Source: Acinetobacter sp. XS-4 | Lineage (GTDB): Bacteria > Pseudomonadota > Gammaproteobacteria > Pseudomonadales > Moraxellaceae | Assembly (NCBI RefSeq): GCF_023920705.1 | Contig: NZ_CP094657.1 | Location: forward strand, 2,852,001 to 2,916,000 | Direction of reading: 5' to 3' | DNA: 64,000 nucleotides | In this document: piece after piece, positions 24,160 to 32,124 of the stretch | Numbering within the stretch: the first letter of the stretch is position 1 | Layout of the letters: each line of letters begins with the position of its first letter | The notes under the pieces: model-generated | Databases searched by the model: none | The model's input: the letters and a program-made list of their open reading frames with translations, nothing else | Told to the model about the DNA's origin: nothing | Translations under genes and position numbers: made by a program

Positions 24160-26739
24160 TTAACTGAGTTTCATTTTATCGAAGACTAAATGACCATTTT
24201 CACCTTTAACCAAAATGGTATCACCAGCGACAAAATCACCTGACAAGATTTTTTGAGCTAATGTGTTTTCAATCTGTTGTTGAATCGCACGTTTTAATGG
24301 ACGCGCGCCATAGACAGGATCGAAACCAGCATCAATCAATAAATCAAAAGCAGTGTCATCTACAGTTAAACTCATATCACGATCAACAAGACGTGAACGT
24401 AATCGATCCAACTGAATATCGGCAATGCCACGAATCTGTGCTTTTTTGAGTGAATGGAAAATCACAAGCTCATCAATCCGGTTAATAAATTCCGGACGGA
24501 AATGCTGACTTACCGCATTCATTACAATGGTACGCACTTCATCGTCTGTTGCACCCTCACCTAGCTCACGTACATCTTGTGAACCTAAGTTTGAAGTCAT
24601 CACAATCACAGTATTTTTAAAGTCCACTACTCGGCCTTGTGAGTCTGTTAAGCGACCGTCATCCAACACTTGTAGCAAGATATTGAATACATCTGGATGC
24701 GCTTTTTCAACCTCATCAAACAACACCACACTATATGGTTTACGGCGAACAGCTTCAGTTAAAACACCACCTTCTTCATAACCTACATAACCCGGAGGTG
24801 CACCCACCAAACGGCTAACCGAATGTTTCTCCATGAATTCACTCATATCGATACGAATCATGGCGTCATCACTGTCAAACAAAAAGTTCGCCAGTGCTTT
24901 GGTCAACTCAGTTTTACCAACACCTGTTGGACCTAAGAACAAGAATGAACCACTTGGACGATTCGGATCAGATAAGCCTGCACGCGAACGACGAACAGCA
25001 TTGGAAACAGCAACAACAGCTTCATCTTGCCCTACAACACGGTCATGTAAAAAACCTTCCATATTGAGGAGCTTTTCACGCTCGCCTTGCAGCATTTTCG
25101 CAACCGGAATTCCTGTTGCGGCACTCACAACTTCGGCAATTTCATTTTCAGTCACTTTAGTACGAATAAGTTTTGGCTCTTCGTTCTCTTCTGCAACTTC
25201 ATCTTGCTCGAGTTGTTTTTGAAGCTCTGGAATTACACCATACTGTAAACGCGCTGCCTCAGCTAAATCACCCTCACGCTGAGCTTTCTCAAAAGCAATA
25301 CGTGCTTTATCAAGTTCAACTTGAGCTTGTTTAGTACCTTCAACAAGAGTCTTCTCAGATTTCCAGATTTCTTCAAGATCGTTGTATTCTTTCTCGACTT
25401 CAGCAATCTGTTTTTCAAGATGAGTAACTTCAGCTTTGCTGCCGACATCTTCATCTTTTTTCACAGCTTCTAATTGCATTTTCAACTGGATTAAACGGCG
25501 ATCAAGCTTATCAAGCGCTTCTGGTTTAGAGTCAATTTCCATCTTAATCCGAGACGCAGCCTCATCAATCAAGTCAATTGCTTTGTCTGGTAATTGACGA
25601 TCGGTGATGTAACGATGAGACATTTTAGCCGCTGCAATAATCGCTGAGTCTAAAATCTGCACCCCATGGTGAGTGGCATATTTCTCTTTTAGACCACGTA
25701 AAATCGCAATGGTATCTTCAACACTAGGCTCATCAACCAACACTTTTTGGAAACGACGCTCTAATGCAGCATCTTTTTCAATGTATTGGCGGTATTCATC
25801 TAGGGTTGTTGCACCCACACAGCGTAATTCACCACGCGCTAATGCAGGTTTTAACATGTTCCCTGCATCCATCGCGCCATCACCTTTACCTGCGCCTACA
25901 AGCGTGTGTAGCTCGTCAATAAACAGGATGATTTCGCCTTCGTGTTTTGCCAAATCTTTTAAAACAGCTTTTAAGCGTTCTTCAAACTCACCGCGATATT
26001 TAGCACCAGCCAGTAATGAACCTAAATCCAATGATAAAACACGTTTGCTTTTTAAGCCTTCTGGTACTTCGCCATTAACAATACGCTGTGCCAAACCTTC
26101 AACAATAGCGGTTTTACCAACACCCGGTTCACCAATGAGTACAGGGTTGTTTTTTGTACGACGTGATAAAACCTGAATCGTACGGCGGATTTCATCATCA
26201 CGCCCAATCACTGGGTCAAGTTTTCCAGATAAAGCACGCTCAGTTAAATCAATCGTATATTTATTAAGTGAGTCACGTTGATCTTCGTGATTATTACTCA
26301 TGACTTTGTCACTACCTCGAATATGTTCAATTACTTTGCGTAGGCTATCGGGAGTTACACCTACAGCACTTAAAATATTTTTAGTTTCGCCTGTCTCTGC
26401 TAAGCCTAATAGCACCCAATCAGTTGACAGAAATTCATCACCCGCTTTTTGCGCATATCGATCTGCCAGATTAAGCGCTTTAACGGCTTCAGGGTTTAAA
26501 TTGACATCCCCAGTCGGATTCGCAATGGTCGGAGCATCTTTTATAGCTTGCTCAAGCTTTTGTTTAAGCTCAGGTAACCGTGCACCTGCTTGTTGCAACA
26601 AACTAATATTTGATGGCTCTTCTAAAAGGGTACTCAAAATATGAATACCTGCGATCGCGGTATGGTCTTTACCCATCGCTAAAGATTGAGCATCTGAAAG
26701 GGCTTGCTGCAAGCGGTTTGTAAATTTTTCAAAACGCAT
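24160..26739 (-). CDS. clpB: Disaggregase ClpB
   Basis: 859 residues, full family length. This AAA+ hexamer resolubilises aggregated protein together with DnaK in the cytoplasm. It has an N-terminal ClpN double repeat (1-145), AAA-1 with Walker [14 protein letters not shown] (about 205), a coiled-coil M domain (about 410-530, [20 protein letters not shown]), and AAA-2 with Walker [14 protein letters not shown] (about 605) and the GYVGYEEGG pore loop. It is monocistronic with a sigma-32-type promoter upstream. An internal ATG (residue 147, base 26301) may give the shorter ClpB form known in other bacteria. Confidence 0.98.
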
Positions 26740-27019: not shown

Positions 27020-27049
27020 AAGGCAGCCCTTCATTTGAAAGACTACCTT
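27020..27049 (-). terminator. Terminator of the Dyp-GRE gene
   Basis: On the reverse strand aaggtag pairs with ctgcctt (one G-U), with an inner ttTCA/TGA pairing, followed by a T-rich tract, 14 bases past the stop. Confidence 0.55.
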
Positions 27050-27062
27050 ACAAAACAGCTAA

Positions 27063-30000
27063 TCAGTTATGCCATTGGTGGAACGGACATTTAGCTTGCT
27101 CTGTTTTTTCTTCTGGAAGATCCGGCATAGAAATTGGACGACGCTGATGTTGATCTTGAATAATAGGGAACACAGATGTAAAGAAGTTTGACCAACCACC
27201 AGTACGTACTCGCAACAGATTATATTGCTCAGGTGATGTTACAGCTTGAGCAAATGTTTCTGGGTCAGCGACCGTTATTGTTAAAATATTGGATGATCCA
27301 CCTTGGCTAAATTGCTTTAAGATGGCTACAAGTTCTTTAACGCCAAAGTCTTCACCAATATTAAAATCTGTAGGTGCGCCATCCGCCATTAAATCTGTTC
27401 CGACACCAGCAAAACCTTGTAAAGCACGACTGAATTCAACTGTTTGATGATCAATTGCTAAATCTGCTGGACTTGGTGACGGACTTAAATCAGATGCGAC
27501 AGTTGTACCTAAACGGCGACCGTCAGCACTTGCCCCATTCCAAGCCCCCATCTCTACATGATTTTCAAAAGTTCCTACGCCAGGTTGAATTTGAATACCA
27601 AAAGGATGCTCTTCTGAACCATAACGCTCAGCCAAACTTTTAAGGCTTTGTGCAAATTGGGGCCATGGATTGGTAAATGTTTTAACTGATATTTCAGCAA
27701 TCATTTTAACAATCTCATCGCCTAATTTATCGACTTCAGAATTCCCTCGCCCATAACGTGGTTGTGCCAAAGCAATCTCACGTAAGCGCTTATAACGATC
27801 AGCTTGTGCAGCAATACGAGCATGACCAGCTAAATTACTAATAAATGGCTCGGTCATTTTATATCCCCAGTCACAACACAAGCACTCTAACAACTCAGGC
27901 AAAGTGGTTACTGCGGTTAATGGATCAAATACCATTGCCTTAATGGCATATAGTGAATTGATCGTATTACTTAAAGAGATATAGCACGGTCCATAAATAT
28001 TATATTTAGCCCCACCACTATAAAAATCTTGCCCTTTAGCCAAACAATCATCCATCAATACATTTAAAATTGGAGATGGGCAAATATCTGTATTGGCACC
28101 ATAACCTAGAATTTGGCCATTAAAAGCTTTGCGGTTAAGTAATTCAAAATGTTGCTCATAGAGCTTTAAGAGTTCTTCAAAACTATCAATCTGATCGGCA
28201 GGTTTCGTATTTAATGAAACAGTTTGTCCAAACAAATAGCTTTGTCCCGCACTTGAAATTGTTCTACCCTGATTTAATGCACATTCCAAAGGCTGTAATG
28301 TCGAGAAGCCACCTAAAGAAAACCAGTTTTCGCCCGGAAATTGTGGTTCATAACAGCCATCACAAGCGTAATTCTGCGCTGAACGAATATCGACTTTAGA
28401 GTTCCAAGTTGGGAGTTTACTTAGTTCATCGCCTCCTACACCATTTCCACTCTGGTGAAGACTAGGAATAAGCTTTTCATCATTTAGTAAAATCGGGTGA
28501 GCACCACCAGATAAAATCGCATGTGCAGCTTCTTCTAAAATATCTTCTGGAATATCTTTGCGAGTTCTTAAAGACAAACACGGAGCATTTAATGGTAAAC
28601 GGCCTGATGCACGAATGAATAATCGTGTCACATCATTGTAAGCAGATTCAGTTTTAGAAAAATCTGCTTCACCGTCAACTTTTGTACCACCGACTGTAAT
28701 CTGCTGAATCCATTGCCCCAAAGATGCTCCTTGAGGATAAGGGCCGGAGCTACCACCCATCGCAAGATTACCGAAAGGTTGATGGTCTTCCATAAACATT
28801 CGGTTTTGTTGTACTTTTTCATCTAGCTTAATATAAAACGCATCAATAATTTCCTGAGCTTCTTCAAGCGGGATCGCATCTTGTTCAAAGAAAGGTTGCA
28901 ACAGTTGGTCCATACGTCCAAATGCCGTTGGCTCACCATTTAAATGCAAACAACTATGCAATGTGAAAATAAATTGAACTGCTTCAATAAATGTGTCCGG
29001 TTTATCTTTCGATAACTTTTCCATGCGTCGACCAATCGCAGTTAAGTTATCTTTTTCGAATTGCTGTCCTTCTTGCATCTGGTCTGCAATTTTAAATGCA
29101 AGTTTTGAGTAGTTTAAGAAATATTCAGAAATACCAATCAATGCCAATGCAGAGGCTTCATAGAAATCTTTCTTTTCTTGAGTCTGTGCATTATTTGCAT
29201 GTTTAGCAATTTCTTGTTGTAGACCAGCCAAACCTAAATCTAATGCTTTTTTATAATTTGGGATAACATGCCCCACACCCGATGCTTCACTTAAGTTACG
29301 CAGAAAACCCTGAAGGCGCTCTTCTTCAGATAAATATTTCATGACATAGCGACCTTCACCCAAGGTCAAGTTTGGCATGGCTCCTACAATAATTTCATCA
29401 GGCATGATGCGATAAGTGTCCGATCCATAAACGACCTTACCTTGACATTCAAGTCTGCTCGAATATGGAACCATTTCACCCGTTTCTTTTAATAATATTT
29501 TCCGTCCACGGAAACCATAATTTTCTGATGAGAATAATTGCAGACTTAATCGAATAGCCCAGCCTTTTCGTAGCATAATTGATAAACCCATAATATTTTC
29601 AGGCTTATCAAGGATATCGAACTGGTTAATGTAATAATCTATCCCGTGCTCAATCTCTTCTTGTTTACGGTTGAAATACCAGTTGTCTTGCCATAAAGAA
29701 AATGTATTCTCAAGTAGACTTAAAATACGATTTGATGGTGGTTTAAAAAATTCACTATGAGGGTTTAGCCCAGTCGCCATATTAAAAAGGTAATTACTAT
29801 GGTTGTAATACATCAAACCATTATCAGAACTGTTCGTATAATGGCGATCAAATCGGGTCCAATCCATCCCTGGGAAAAAGTTCCAGTTATCATTATCCAG
29901 CCGACTAAAATCATTTAAATATTCTGGAGCATCATCTAATGCCAAATCTTTTAAACTTGGAACATAAAATATACCGCCTAAGTCTGAGTGAAGATTATTG

Positions 30001-30974
30001 AATAATCTGTCATTCATGAAACCTTTTATTGCTCCAACCTGACTTGCCATTACTTCTTCTAAAATGGCAGCAGTTTTTGCAAAGCCAGCAAAATAAATTC
30101 CGGCTTCATCTGCTTTAGTGACCGATTTTGGCACTCTAAAACTTGAATTTGATTCAGCACGGCCGAACGGTAAGCCCAGACGCAGAACAGGTGTTGTATT
30201 TCCATTTTCATCTTGCACACGAGACGCTTTAATGTGCGAACGGCTATCACGATCGGGAATAATTGTGTCGTCAGTTTTACGTCCAATCAAATCTTCAATT
30301 TGATCTTCTGACATCATATTGATTTGATCCCAGTTAATCATAAACCGTTGAGATAAAACGTATGAACCACCAAAGTGCTCAATATCTTCAGCACCAATTA
30401 AAGTATGCTTTGCCAGTGAAATAGGATCAGATGGATTATTTAAATTTTCAGAGAAACGACATCCTAAAACCTTACCATTACGACCGTTTTTAGATTGTGA
30501 AGCAGTCACCTGACTCACTATTTCTTTAATATCTAACGCTAAAAATTTCTCAATATATTCTTGTAATACTGTACATGCATTAGCATCATCACTTTTTACA
30601 TGCAACCAAATATCACCTTCCGAGTTTTTAAAACTCCCATTAGAATCAGCAAAAACTTTAGAGATATTTGGATGATGGCGCTTTGGATAATGTAATTGCA
30701 TTCCTTTTGGTCGTGATAAACCATCTTTTTCACAAATCAGATCCCAGTTATCAAAAGATACACCGACAGCCAAAGTCGTATTTTTACTAGAAAGTGCAGG
30801 ATTTTTATTAATCTCTTGACGCACAGCGATCATTAATTGACGAATTTTTTCACGTGTAATTTCTGTATTAAGCCAAACCGTACTAAAAGTTGCATGGGGG
30901 GCTGGATAAACCAACCCTCGTTGCATATATTTCCATATTTCAGTAAAACGATCTTCATAAAAGATATCTAACAT
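27063..30974 (-). CDS. Fused Dyp-type peroxidase and glycyl radical enzyme (PFL-like)
   Basis: 1303 residues. About 1-340 is a Dyp-type haem peroxidase: GGSYVLSQRF (202-211), IGRK (230-233), probable proximal haem ligand His247 in SHIKASR, distal Arg265 in LRLGLPFG, and GIYFAGF (292-298). The GFxDGxxNP motif reads RFSENLNNP (173-181), with Glu176 in place of the usual Asp. About 400-1303 is a glycyl radical enzyme of full length: HVIPNYKKALDLGL (569-582), the cysteine motif DGCYEP with Cys874 and Glu876, and the C-terminal glycine-loop RTGGWSNFF with Gly1260 at the radical position. The frame is continuous with no frameshift. Reaction and substrate are unknown. No radical-SAM activase lies in the window. 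The gene is alone on its strand, flanked by clpB upstream promoter DNA and an AT-rich region. Confidence 0.88.
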   Translation of the reverse strand: MLDIFYEDRFTEIWKYMQRGLVYPAPHATFSTVWLNTEITREKIRQLMIAVRQEINKNPALSSKNTTLAVGVSFDNWDLICEKDGLSRPKGMQLHYPKRHHPNISKVFADSNGSFKNSEGDIWLHVKSDDANACTVLQEYIEKFLALDIKEIVSQVTASQSKNGRNGKVLGCRFSENLNNPSDPISLAKHTLIGAEDIEHFGGSYVLSQRFMINWDQINMMSEDQIEDLIGRKTDDTIIPDRDSRSHIKASRVQDENGNTTPVLRLGLPFGRAESNSSFRVPKSVTKADEAGIYFAGFAKTAAILEEVMASQVGAIKGFMNDRLFNNLHSDLGGIFYVPSLKDLALDDAPEYLNDFSRLDNDNWNFFPGMDWTRFDRHYTNSSDNGLMYYNHSNYLFNMATGLNPHSEFFKPPSNRILSLLENTFSLWQDNWYFNRKQEEIEHGIDYYINQFDILDKPENIMGLSIMLRKGWAIRLSLQLFSSENYGFRGRKILLKETGEMVPYSSRLECQGKVVYGSDTYRIMPDEIIVGAMPNLTLGEGRYVMKYLSEEERLQGFLRNLSEASGVGHVIPNYKKALDLGLAGLQQEIAKHANNAQTQEKKDFYEASALALIGISEYFLNYSKLAFKIADQMQEGQQFEKDNLTAIGRRMEKLSKDKPDTFIEAVQFIFTLHSCLHLNGEPTAFGRMDQLLQPFFEQDAIPLEEAQEIIDAFYIKLDEKVQQNRMFMEDHQPFGNLAMGGSSGPYPQGASLGQWIQQITVGGTKVDGEADFSKTESAYNDVTRLFIRASGRLPLNAPCLSLRTRKDIPEDILEEAAHAILSGGAHPILLNDEKLIPSLHQSGNGVGGDELSKLPTWNSKVDIRSAQNYACDGCYEPQFPGENWFSLGGFSTLQPLECALNQGRTISSAGQSYLFGQTVSLNTKPADQIDSFEELLKLYEQHFELLNRKAFNGQILGYGANTDICPSPILNVLMDDCLAKGQDFYSGGAKYNIYGPCYISLSNTINSLYAIKAMVFDPLTAVTTLPELLECLCCDWGYKMTEPFISNLAGHARIAAQADRYKRLREIALAQPRYGRGNSEVDKLGDEIVKMIAEISVKTFTNPWPQFAQSLKSLAERYGSEEHPFGIQIQPGVGTFENHVEMGAWNGASADGRRLGTTVASDLSPSPSPADLAIDHQTVEFSRALQGFAGVGTDLMADGAPTDFNIGEDFGVKELVAILKQFSQGGSSNILTITVADPETFAQAVTSPEQYNLLRVRTGGWSNFFTSVFPIIQDQHQRRPISMPDLPEEKTEQAKCPFHQWHN

Positions 30975-31314
30975 TATATTAAGTCCTTTAAAATATTTAT
31001 ATAATAATTAAAATTTTGATTATAAATTCAACCAACAAATCATTATTAACAATAAAAATTAAAATAACAAGATCTTTAAAAACCAAAGAAAATAGTAGGA
31101 ATTAAAATATAAAAAACCATAAAAAATAAAATTTAGAAAAATTAAAATAAAAAATAAGTAAGCCCAACAAAATAAAGATTAATATACAATTTCAACAATC
31201 AACTGTTAAAATAAAATAACAAATAAACCTTTTCTTTAAAAAAATTAAAATAACTTTTAATTAAAACTTATTGATATAATCTTCATTATTCTTTGCATAA
31301 AAACTAAGGTTGCC
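30975..31314. other. AT-rich intergenic region, divergent promoters
   Basis: 340 bases, extremely AT-rich, between the divergent Dyp-GRE and M23 peptidase genes. A recurring ATTAAAATAA-type motif appears five or more times, including AATAACAA at 31063-31070 and 31215-31222 and AATAAC at 31249-31254. No open frame. It probably contains both promoters and could bind a nucleoid protein. Confidence 0.55.
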
Positions 31315-32124
31315 ATGTTTATAAAAAAGCTCATCTCCTCGTTACTTTTTACATCCATACCTTTTTATTGCTTTGCCGAGCTTCCACAAGACTCCAGAAG
31401 AGCTGGTGGGATTGCAGTTATTCCCCTAACTAGCGATATTACTCACGTTACCTTTCAACAAAAGCCAGTTTTAATTAGTCAGGAAGGTCAACAACGTTAT
31501 GCTGTTGTGGGTATTCCGTTATCTACTCCACTTGGTCGTGTTCAGCTCGACACGAATAAAGCCCCTATTCAAATAGAAGTTAAGTCCTATCCTTATGCGG
31601 AGCAACGGATTAAAGTCACTAACCAAGATTATGTGAACCCGAACCAAAGCCAGTTAGACCGCTATGCTCAAGAAGCTAAAGAACAAAATGAGGTGTATAA
31701 CTCATTTACACAGAGTTCATGGCAAACCCTACCAGCATTTATACGTCCAACATCAGGGAAATTTACCAACTCTTTCGGAAGAAAACGTTTCTTTAATGGT
31801 GAAGAACGCGCCCCCCACTCAGGTTTAGATATCCCTGCTCCAGTAGGACAAAAAGTTGTTGCACCCGCAGATGGTGTCGTTATCCAAACCGGATCTTATT
31901 TTTTTAATGGTCAAACTGTATTGATTGATCATGGCCAAGGCCTAGTCAGCATGTTCTGCCATTTAAGCGCCATTAAAGTAGAGAAAGGCCAACATATCCA
32001 TCAAGGAGAAACGCTAGGTTTAGTGGGCAAAACTGGACGTGTAACAGGCCCACATTTGCATTGGGGGATGAGCCTTAATAATGCTCGGGTAGATCCACAG
32101 CTTTTTCTAAATACAGCTCGTTAA
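31315..32124 (+). CDS. Exported M23-family peptidoglycan endopeptidase
   Basis: 269 residues with a signal peptide (MFIKKLISSLLFTSIPFYCF, cleavage after Ala21). The N-terminal part is a beta-rich domain that resembles other LytM-associated pro-regions; the C-terminal M23 domain has zinc ligands His168 and Asp172 (HSGLD), His216 and the HLH motif His247-Leu-His249 (GPHLHWG). All catalytic residues expected of an active metallo-endopeptidase are present, unlike degenerate EnvC/NlpD activators. It acts on peptide cross-links in the periplasm. It overlaps the convergent GNAT gene by 4 bases at its 3' end. Confidence 0.92.
   Translation: MFIKKLISSLLFTSIPFYCFAELPQDSRRAGGIAVIPLTSDITHVTFQQKPVLISQEGQQRYAVVGIPLSTPLGRVQLDTNKAPIQIEVKSYPYAEQRIKVTNQDYVNPNQSQLDRYAQEAKEQNEVYNSFTQSSWQTLPAFIRPTSGKFTNSFGRKRFFNGEERAPHSGLDIPAPVGQKVVAPADGVVIQTGSYFFNGQTVLIDHGQGLVSMFCHLSAIKVEKGQHIHQGETLGLVGKTGRVTGPHLHWGMSLNNARVDPQLFLNTAR

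Follow-up and report, generated by a model that had tools for sequence, protein, structure and literature searches.

A chain joining a haem peroxidase to a glycyl radical enzyme in Acinetobacter and distant relatives, and a possible peroxide start for its radical

How does an aerobe come to keep a glycyl radical enzyme (GRE) when, to our knowledge, every characterized GRE is activated by a radical S-adenosylmethionine (radical-SAM) enzyme under anoxic conditions? The question is raised by a gene of Acinetobacter sp. XS-4, found in a stretch of 64,000 nucleotides (contig NZ_CP094657.1, positions 2,852,001 to 2,916,000) that we call the window and in whose coordinates features are given. The gene lies on the minus strand (27063..30974, stop codon included) and encodes, in one chain of 1303 aa, a dye-decolorizing peroxidase (DyP) followed by a GRE. 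A preliminary description of this locus had already remarked how odd a GRE is in an aerobic host, and we agree: Acinetobacter, Pedobacter, Burkholderia, and animals, all named among the hosts below, are aerobes. The answer we put first, with a probability just short of even, is that of a self-starting GRE, in which the DyP haem and peroxide replace the radical-SAM activase as the radical starter.

The single 1303-codon frame reported in the preliminary description was confirmed, with its ATG at 30974, its stop at 27063, and no internal stop; the strand had been left unstated. Its domain limits (about 1-340 and 400-1303) also held and are now set at residues 12-348 for the DyP domain (29931..30941) and approximately 408-1303 for the full-length GRE domain (27066..29753), with a conserved linker of residues 349-407 (29754..29930) between the two matched folds. 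Compared with four Acinetobacter copies, dN/dS was 0.10-0.15 for the DyP domain, 0.04-0.09 for the linker (measured over residues 346-555), and 0.05-0.07 for the GRE domain, values which indicate that both halves are under purifying selection. An assembly error joining two genes, named earlier as what could undo the proposal, was looked at through relatives in three more Acinetobacter genomes and in A. calcoaceticus ANC 3811, and no error was seen. Together with homologous chains elsewhere and the purifying selection, these copies exclude both an assembly error and a chance frame. One copy (genome G047) carried a TAG in its listing, but a reading of the sequence showed the frame to be open as far as the normal end.

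Profiles and predicted folds placed the two halves in known superfamilies. With Pfam, the protein matched the pyruvate formate-lyase (PFL)-like family PF02901 (E = 1.1e-100) and Dyp_perox_C PF20628 (E = 3.8e-15), and it passed the NCBIfam model of the Dyp family, TIGR01413, with 121 bits against a cut-off of 100.5. The profile evidence anticipated in the preliminary description was therefore only partly borne out: PF02901 was strong, Gly_radical PF01228 reached 20.7 bits, below its cut-off of 22.2, and the five families listed did not include PF04261. The protein nevertheless has the profile, fold, proximal His, and distal Arg of the DyP superfamily, as well as the PFL-like barrel, C-terminal radical Gly loop, and active-site Cys of the GRE superfamily. 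No named GRE model in NCBIfam was reached at cut-off, with 20.3 bits against 994.2 for pyruvate formate-lyase TIGR01255, 236.6 against 678.2 for TIGR01774, and scores far below cut-off for the CutC, HypD, sulfopropanediol, and arylacetate models. Cysteine 874 is followed by Y875 and E876 and has no adjacent Cys, an adjacent Cys-Cys pair being, as we understand it, a feature of pyruvate formate-lyase (formate C-acetyltransferase). The structure prediction proposed earlier for the two-domain chain was run with AlphaFold2 and gave a pTM of 0.91 for residues 1-1200 of the window protein and 0.94 for a full 1173-aa relative. In these models, the DyP and GRE halves are predicted to form one rigid unit in a fixed arrangement, and helix 415-433 of the window protein is the first GRE helix after the linker. 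Among solved structures, the window DyP matched DypB, encapsulin-linked, and YfeX-like chains.

To see how far the catalytic residues are conserved, we assembled a family set of 250 proteins from three protein-database searches (best 120 of 452 matches; best 120 of 211, two of them overlapping; 12 of 12). Residues were counted in the 211 fusions, that is, those of the 251 chains (query included) with at least 1050 aa. The proximal haem ligand H247 (30234..30236) was present in all 211 fusions and the distal arginine R265 (30180..30182) in 202. The distal haem acid, E176 (30447..30449), was Glu in 135 fusions, Asp in 66, and His in nine, with a gap in one. These roles at the haem are assumed from knowledge of the DyP family, in whose ordinary members the distal acid is presumably the Asp of GxxDG. 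The window protein differs from DypB, YfeX, and DtpB, which we take to be DyPs of class P/B, in that its acid is a Glu in the motif FSENLNNP, and in being joined to a GRE. In the other half, the segment YACDGCYEP (28344..28370) holds the thiyl cysteine C874, the base E876, and C871, kept in 209, 210, and 196 fusions, respectively; C874 and E876 align with C433 and E435 of glycerol dehydratase. The radical glycine G1260, in RTGGW (27192..27206), which aligns with the RVAGY loop of GREs, was Gly in 208 fusions and fell in a gap in the other three, and H569 was invariant (211/211). All six of D/E176, H247, R265, C874, E876, and G1260 were kept in 197 of the 211 fusions, and the radical residue set persisted over divergence down to about 35-40% identity. 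Since C874, E876, H569, and G1260 are kept, formation of a thiyl radical in the barrel has most likely persisted.

One could suppose instead that the barrel is free of radicals and serves the peroxidase as a thiol or binding domain, G1260 being retained for structure. The low Gly_radical score would fit, as would the activase searches described below and the replacement of the glycerol dehydratase substrate residues (which we take to be H281, S282, and D447) by E681, P682, and S886 at the aligned positions. Retention of the whole radical set at the counts just given speaks against this idea; we find it improbable and rank it behind the two alternatives weighed further on, in which the radical is made by other means.

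Two tryptophans in the first GRE helix, W428-x3-W432 (29679..29693), may form an electron relay from the haem. Both were present in all 211 fusions, while among nine longer unfused cousins W428 was found in nine and W432 in one, which is likely a truncated fusion. Distances in the DyP and GRE halves were strongly correlated (r 0.89 in a thinned set of 160 chains; 0 of 500 permutations); at the level of sequence, this co-divergence shows a shared history, not a mechanism. Seven unfused cousins (P0214, P0230, P0233-P0236, P0239) have a start of their own, MHxNILxxWQxLE, together with CDGCYE and, where checked, RMGGW. In 57 of the 211 fusions, the C-terminus ends in a CP[FMY] tail (KCPFH in the window protein, 27066..27095).

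If the barrel makes a radical, which protein starts it? In the XS-4 genome, the fusion is the one PFL-like gene and there are 15 radical-SAM matches. Fourteen of them pass the cut-off of another named family (MoaA, HemW, PqqE, BioB, QueE, EpmB, a UDG-linked protein, a PoyD-like epimerase, RlmN, MiaB, RimO, LipA twice, and YgiQ), and the fifteenth, L067, of SPASM type, reached no family cut-off. A GRE activase was not detected in this genome, the best scores being 21.7 bits (cut-off 174) and 41.2 bits (cut-off 232). Elsewhere in the same genome, outside the window (G000:C1:2995744-2998209), a gene for a PoyD-type peptide epimerase adjoins one for a SPASM radical-SAM protein, possibly as a peptide-modifying cluster.

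The search was extended to 28 distinct fusion genomes, counting once each of the pairs G008/G097 and G054/G106, identical by coordinates, and including three (G212, G143, G798) recognized as fusions from frame length and match alone. The activase model TIGR02494 was not above cut-off in 27 of the 28, the exception being G110, and TIGR02493, run on 23 of them, was above cut-off in G110 only. In that genome, an ordinary PFL adjoins its activase. PF02901, also run on 23 fusion genomes, found the fusion as the only PFL-like gene in 22, all but G110. Among genomes with an unfused GRE, TIGR02494 was above cut-off in four of four (G117, G347, G463, G090), and a plasmid of Acinetobacter towneri (L143:7524-10899) carries an ordinary GRE, 23% identical to the window GRE, with an adjacent annotated activase. 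A one-sided Fisher test of activase presence (0/27 fusion genomes vs. 5/5) gave 5e-6, and 3e-4 when genomes were collapsed by genus by hand; the table was set by hand with G110 placed among the unfused, and the values are rough because the genomes are related. Weak activase matches occurred in most fusion genomes, as a rule at about 20-45 bits (54 bits in G100; G110 has others besides its activase). In Trinickia terrae (G098), a 116-bit PFLA-like stretch (L072:1501-1990) runs over two frames, is without the N-terminal cluster motif, and falls below the cut-off; this decayed, activase-like remnant was counted as no activase. The ordinary fold and residues of the barrel would also suit a plain anaerobic GRE that works in oxygen-free niches only and whose partner activase was missed by the models. 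With named hosts regarded as aerobes and no activase found, we judge this the least probable of the explanations considered, and very improbable.

Two further pairings of a DyP with a GRE bear on the same question. The DyP of the fusion in genome G502 has as its nearest solved chains Alr1585 5c2i (1.4e-74) and DyP2 4g2c, and we take it to be of class V. A maximum-likelihood tree of 27 rows placed the G502 GRE with those of G347 and G463 (support 100/99), outside 14 other fusions (100/99) and outside fusions plus unfused cousins (93/91); the root of this tree is a midpoint only, and row L054, on a very long branch, is probably a wrong frame on which no conclusion depends. By its DyP kind and its GRE lineage, G502 is a second, independent fusion. 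In G347 and G463, the activase lies directly beside the unfused GRE, and no activase was above cut-off in the G502 genome (best 26.1 bits). Hence this second lineage, too, combines a DyP with the lack of an activase. On a Hymenobacter plasmid (L141:10010-14281), a cousin GRE, 34.6% identical over the matched part, stands just ahead of a separate DyP gene, with 11 nt between them. This DyP is of a third kind, its N-terminal part being nearest to EfeB deferrochelatases and its C-terminal part to DyP2. Missing activases and a recurring DyP, taken together, make the haem a candidate for the radical source.

The pairings also bear on whether the two halves are ordinary enzymes acting in sequence on one substrate, with activation by another protein. 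Fusions often unite steps of a pathway, and such a cascade would agree with conserved catalytic sites and purifying selection in both halves. Against it, no activase was found, and the pairing of three DyP kinds with GREs suggests a common peroxide chemistry rather than one substrate. We therefore regard a cascade as distinctly unlikely.

As a family, DyPs use peroxide, as the window protein presumably would, and its two halves are predicted to be held in a fixed arrangement. Both points would also suit a guard, in which the DyP removes peroxide or O2-derived oxidants beside a glycyl radical made by an unrecognized activase. The published record adds to this side. The layout, which the preliminary description thought perhaps uncatalogued, had already been described: Zamocky (2016, PMC5041501) presents a DyP-PFL fusion in Chaetomium, with an N-terminal DyP of type B and a C-terminal PFL-like domain in one chain, the same architecture as the window protein. 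That paper notes it also in distant prokaryotes and eukaryotes, calls its meaning elusive, and credits a 2014 encyclopaedia entry. According to the same paper, the fused Chaetomium gene was up 3-fold with H2O2 and 18.5-fold with peracetic acid, and the fungi carrying the fusion have putative PFL activases (PMC5041501). These radical-SAM candidates lie elsewhere in the fungal genomes, in contrast to the bacterial fusion genomes, where 27 of 28 had none above cut-off. That result counts against a guard, as does the fact that other, unfused GREs manage without an attached peroxidase, and a guard gives no account of why DyP presence tracks activase absence in two separate lineages. We consider a guard unlikely, though deserving more weight than a cascade; the starter reading leads, with the guard second and the cascade third. 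The earlier suggestion that peroxide is tied to the making or the protection of a radical fits the missing activases, the two fusions, and the split pair, with forming and protecting not separated. In the open-licence literature searched, no other report naming a DyP-GRE fusion was found among the titles and abstract starts listed, nor was any mention met of absent activases, of a second fusion, or of a split pair.

How might a haem start the radical? The starter reading builds on a fixed arrangement of two predicted folds, conserved catalytic residues, no activase by profile, and repeated pairing with a DyP; from these we infer haem loading, the reaction with peroxide, the electron path, radical formation, and the reaction itself. 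On reaction with H2O2 or a peracid, the DyP haem would turn into a high-valent ferryl form, whose oxidizing power in DyPs roughly matches what Trp and Cys radicals call for. The ferryl haem could then take an electron (with a proton) across the docked interface, with the conserved Trp residues as possible stepping stones, so that a Gly/Cys radical (G1260/C874) would form in the attached barrel without an oxygen-sensitive radical-SAM activase. There, radical chemistry of the C-x-E type would follow, with abstraction by C874 and E876 as the base. The substrate is probably none of the known GRE substrates. The fusion differs from the B12-independent glycerol and propanediol dehydratases (1r8w, 5i2a, 9rcp) and from the choline TMA-lyase CutC in having a DyP and in that a partner activase was not found. 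Ribonucleotide reductases of class I and class III share one barrel family and use, respectively, an oxygen-made partner radical or a radical-SAM-made glycyl radical. The radical of the fusion may likewise be made per turnover, as in class I, in which case a long-lived, oxygen-sensitive glycyl radical would be unneeded; the proposed generator differs in being a haem peroxidase within the same chain. The response of the Chaetomium gene to H2O2 and peracetic acid would also agree with the starter reading, and precedents exist for single steps. One report favors the view that DyPs transfer electrons across long distances by way of aromatic residues on which the radical sits (PMC8197335). Another describes how, in Streptomyces, the DyP DtpA is required for maturation of a protein-radical enzyme, the radical copper oxidase GlxA (PMC4736821). 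There, the two are separate proteins, DtpA is secreted, and GlxA is a copper-tyrosyl radical oxidase, with no GRE involved (PMC4736821).

Several observations weigh against a self-starting GRE. The putative fungal activases have been mentioned. The Gly/Cys pair shows the conservation seen in GREs with a stable radical, and the majority of GREs function with no DyP. In nine fusions (P0142, P0143, P0146, P0149, P0155, P0156, P0166, P0181, P0184), the distal acid is His and the distal Arg is missing, so that the DyP half probably has a different or dead haem pocket, with the rest of the chain mostly kept. The positions of W428 and W432 are R and W in the G502 fusion, and the Trp pair is thus no general relay. 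The 28 fusion genomes, mostly Pedobacter and Acinetobacter, are not 28 independent cases. A divergent radical-SAM activase may lie beyond the reach of TIGR02493 and TIGR02494, and the weak matches in most fusion genomes are assigned to families in the XS-4 genome only. In the split pair, no activase is listed by the Hymenobacter GRE in 22.5 kb of plasmid, the gene table being incomplete and the chromosome not searched. Moreover, its GRE and DyP genes each run over two frames whose stop and start codons overlap, through sequencing errors or a real split, in one imperfect record. Finally, the fusion is rare and patchy, with 2 of 369 genomes of the same class and 2 of 395 Bacteroidota as drawn.

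Where is the architecture found? Names among the database matches include Pedobacter, Flavobacterium, Burkholderia, Shewanella, Xenorhabdus, Archangium, a cyanobacterium, and a Chloroflexota bacterium, and 119 genomes around Pedobacter held 11 full-length fusions plus one contig-end piece. Judging from these sequences, the DyP-GRE architecture is real and widespread, though patchy. Five fusions are listed under animals: the bat star Patiria miniata (P0163), the amphioxus species Branchiostoma belcheri (P0188) and B. floridae (P0213), the shrimp Halocaridina rubra (P0203), and the brittle star Amphiura filiformis (P0121). The Amphiura and B. floridae rows come from contigs 64.7 and 29.6 Mb long, lengths that speak against contamination by bacteria; the shrimp row is on a contig of just 31.5 kb. 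One would not expect an enzyme resembling a GRE in animals. For the unfused cousins of Pedobacter type (P0236), no genome was found in the overlapping sets of 119, 395, and 399, and those searches returned fusions, the more distant G347 and G463, the contig-end piece G150, and the short scraps G216 and G136.

Within Acinetobacter, a full-length fusion was found in four of 60 genomes searched, XS-4 included; the other three copies are 92-93% identical to that of the window, and the copy of A. calcoaceticus ANC 3811 is 96% identical. The insertion site is flanked by clpB (24160..26739, minus strand) and an M23-type peptidase gene (31315..32124, plus strand), both named by eye. In the best 30 peptidase-gene loci, read from 41 matching genomes out of 99, the two flanking genes were directly adjacent in 22, had the fusion between them in four, and showed neither arrangement in four, so that the simplest reading is a gain of the fusion in few Acinetobacter species. 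In the window, the gene looks like its own transcription unit, with a putative ribosome-binding site, AAAGGA, seen by eye 5' of the ATG (30984..30989, minus strand) and a terminator-like stem of 13 pairs just 3' of the stop (27020..27049, minus strand); the terminator scan gave 6 sites against 3.4 in shuffles, and the site count alone is no proof. The intergenic stretch upstream of the gene (30975-31314) has a G+C content of 15.6%, compared with 38% for the window.

No conserved operon partner was seen: across 21 loci, read for frames of at least 70 aa with flanks of up to 8 kb, no gene stood beside the fusion at a like position in distant genera. Three small neighbor clusters (named by eye) are shared by different genera, at positions that differ in each case: an aldo-keto-reductase-like one in Acinetobacter, one Pedobacter, and Flavobacterium, a Trinickia-Flavobacterium pair, and a regulator-like Pedobacter-Flavobacterium pair. 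Rheinheimera and a gammaproteobacterial metagenome-assembled genome, being near relatives, have the whole stretch around the fusion in common. In two cases, from two different fusion lineages, a gene of the FGE-sulfatase type (SUMF1/EgtB-like) stands a short way upstream of the fusion, namely in G502 (L146:4862-5824) and on an Asticcacaulis plasmid (L142:6885-7889), with none beside the window gene.

What would this mean for the family? GREs are behind some of biology's most demanding bond cleavages. It is conceivable, and we hold this more tentatively than the haem start itself, that these proteins make up a new class of GRE, started by a haem peroxidase and peroxide in place of radical SAM and working in air, which arose at least twice, each time from another DyP kind and another GRE lineage, with the split form as a third case, and spread to animals. 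If so, an activase-free, peroxide-started, and oxygen-compatible GRE would widen the places in which to look for such enzymes to aerobic soil bacteria, fungi, a sea star, and amphioxus, and would change how GRE chemistry can be used. The relation of the fusion to other GREs would then parallel that of class I to class III among ribonucleotide reductases, namely one barrel family served by different radical generators.

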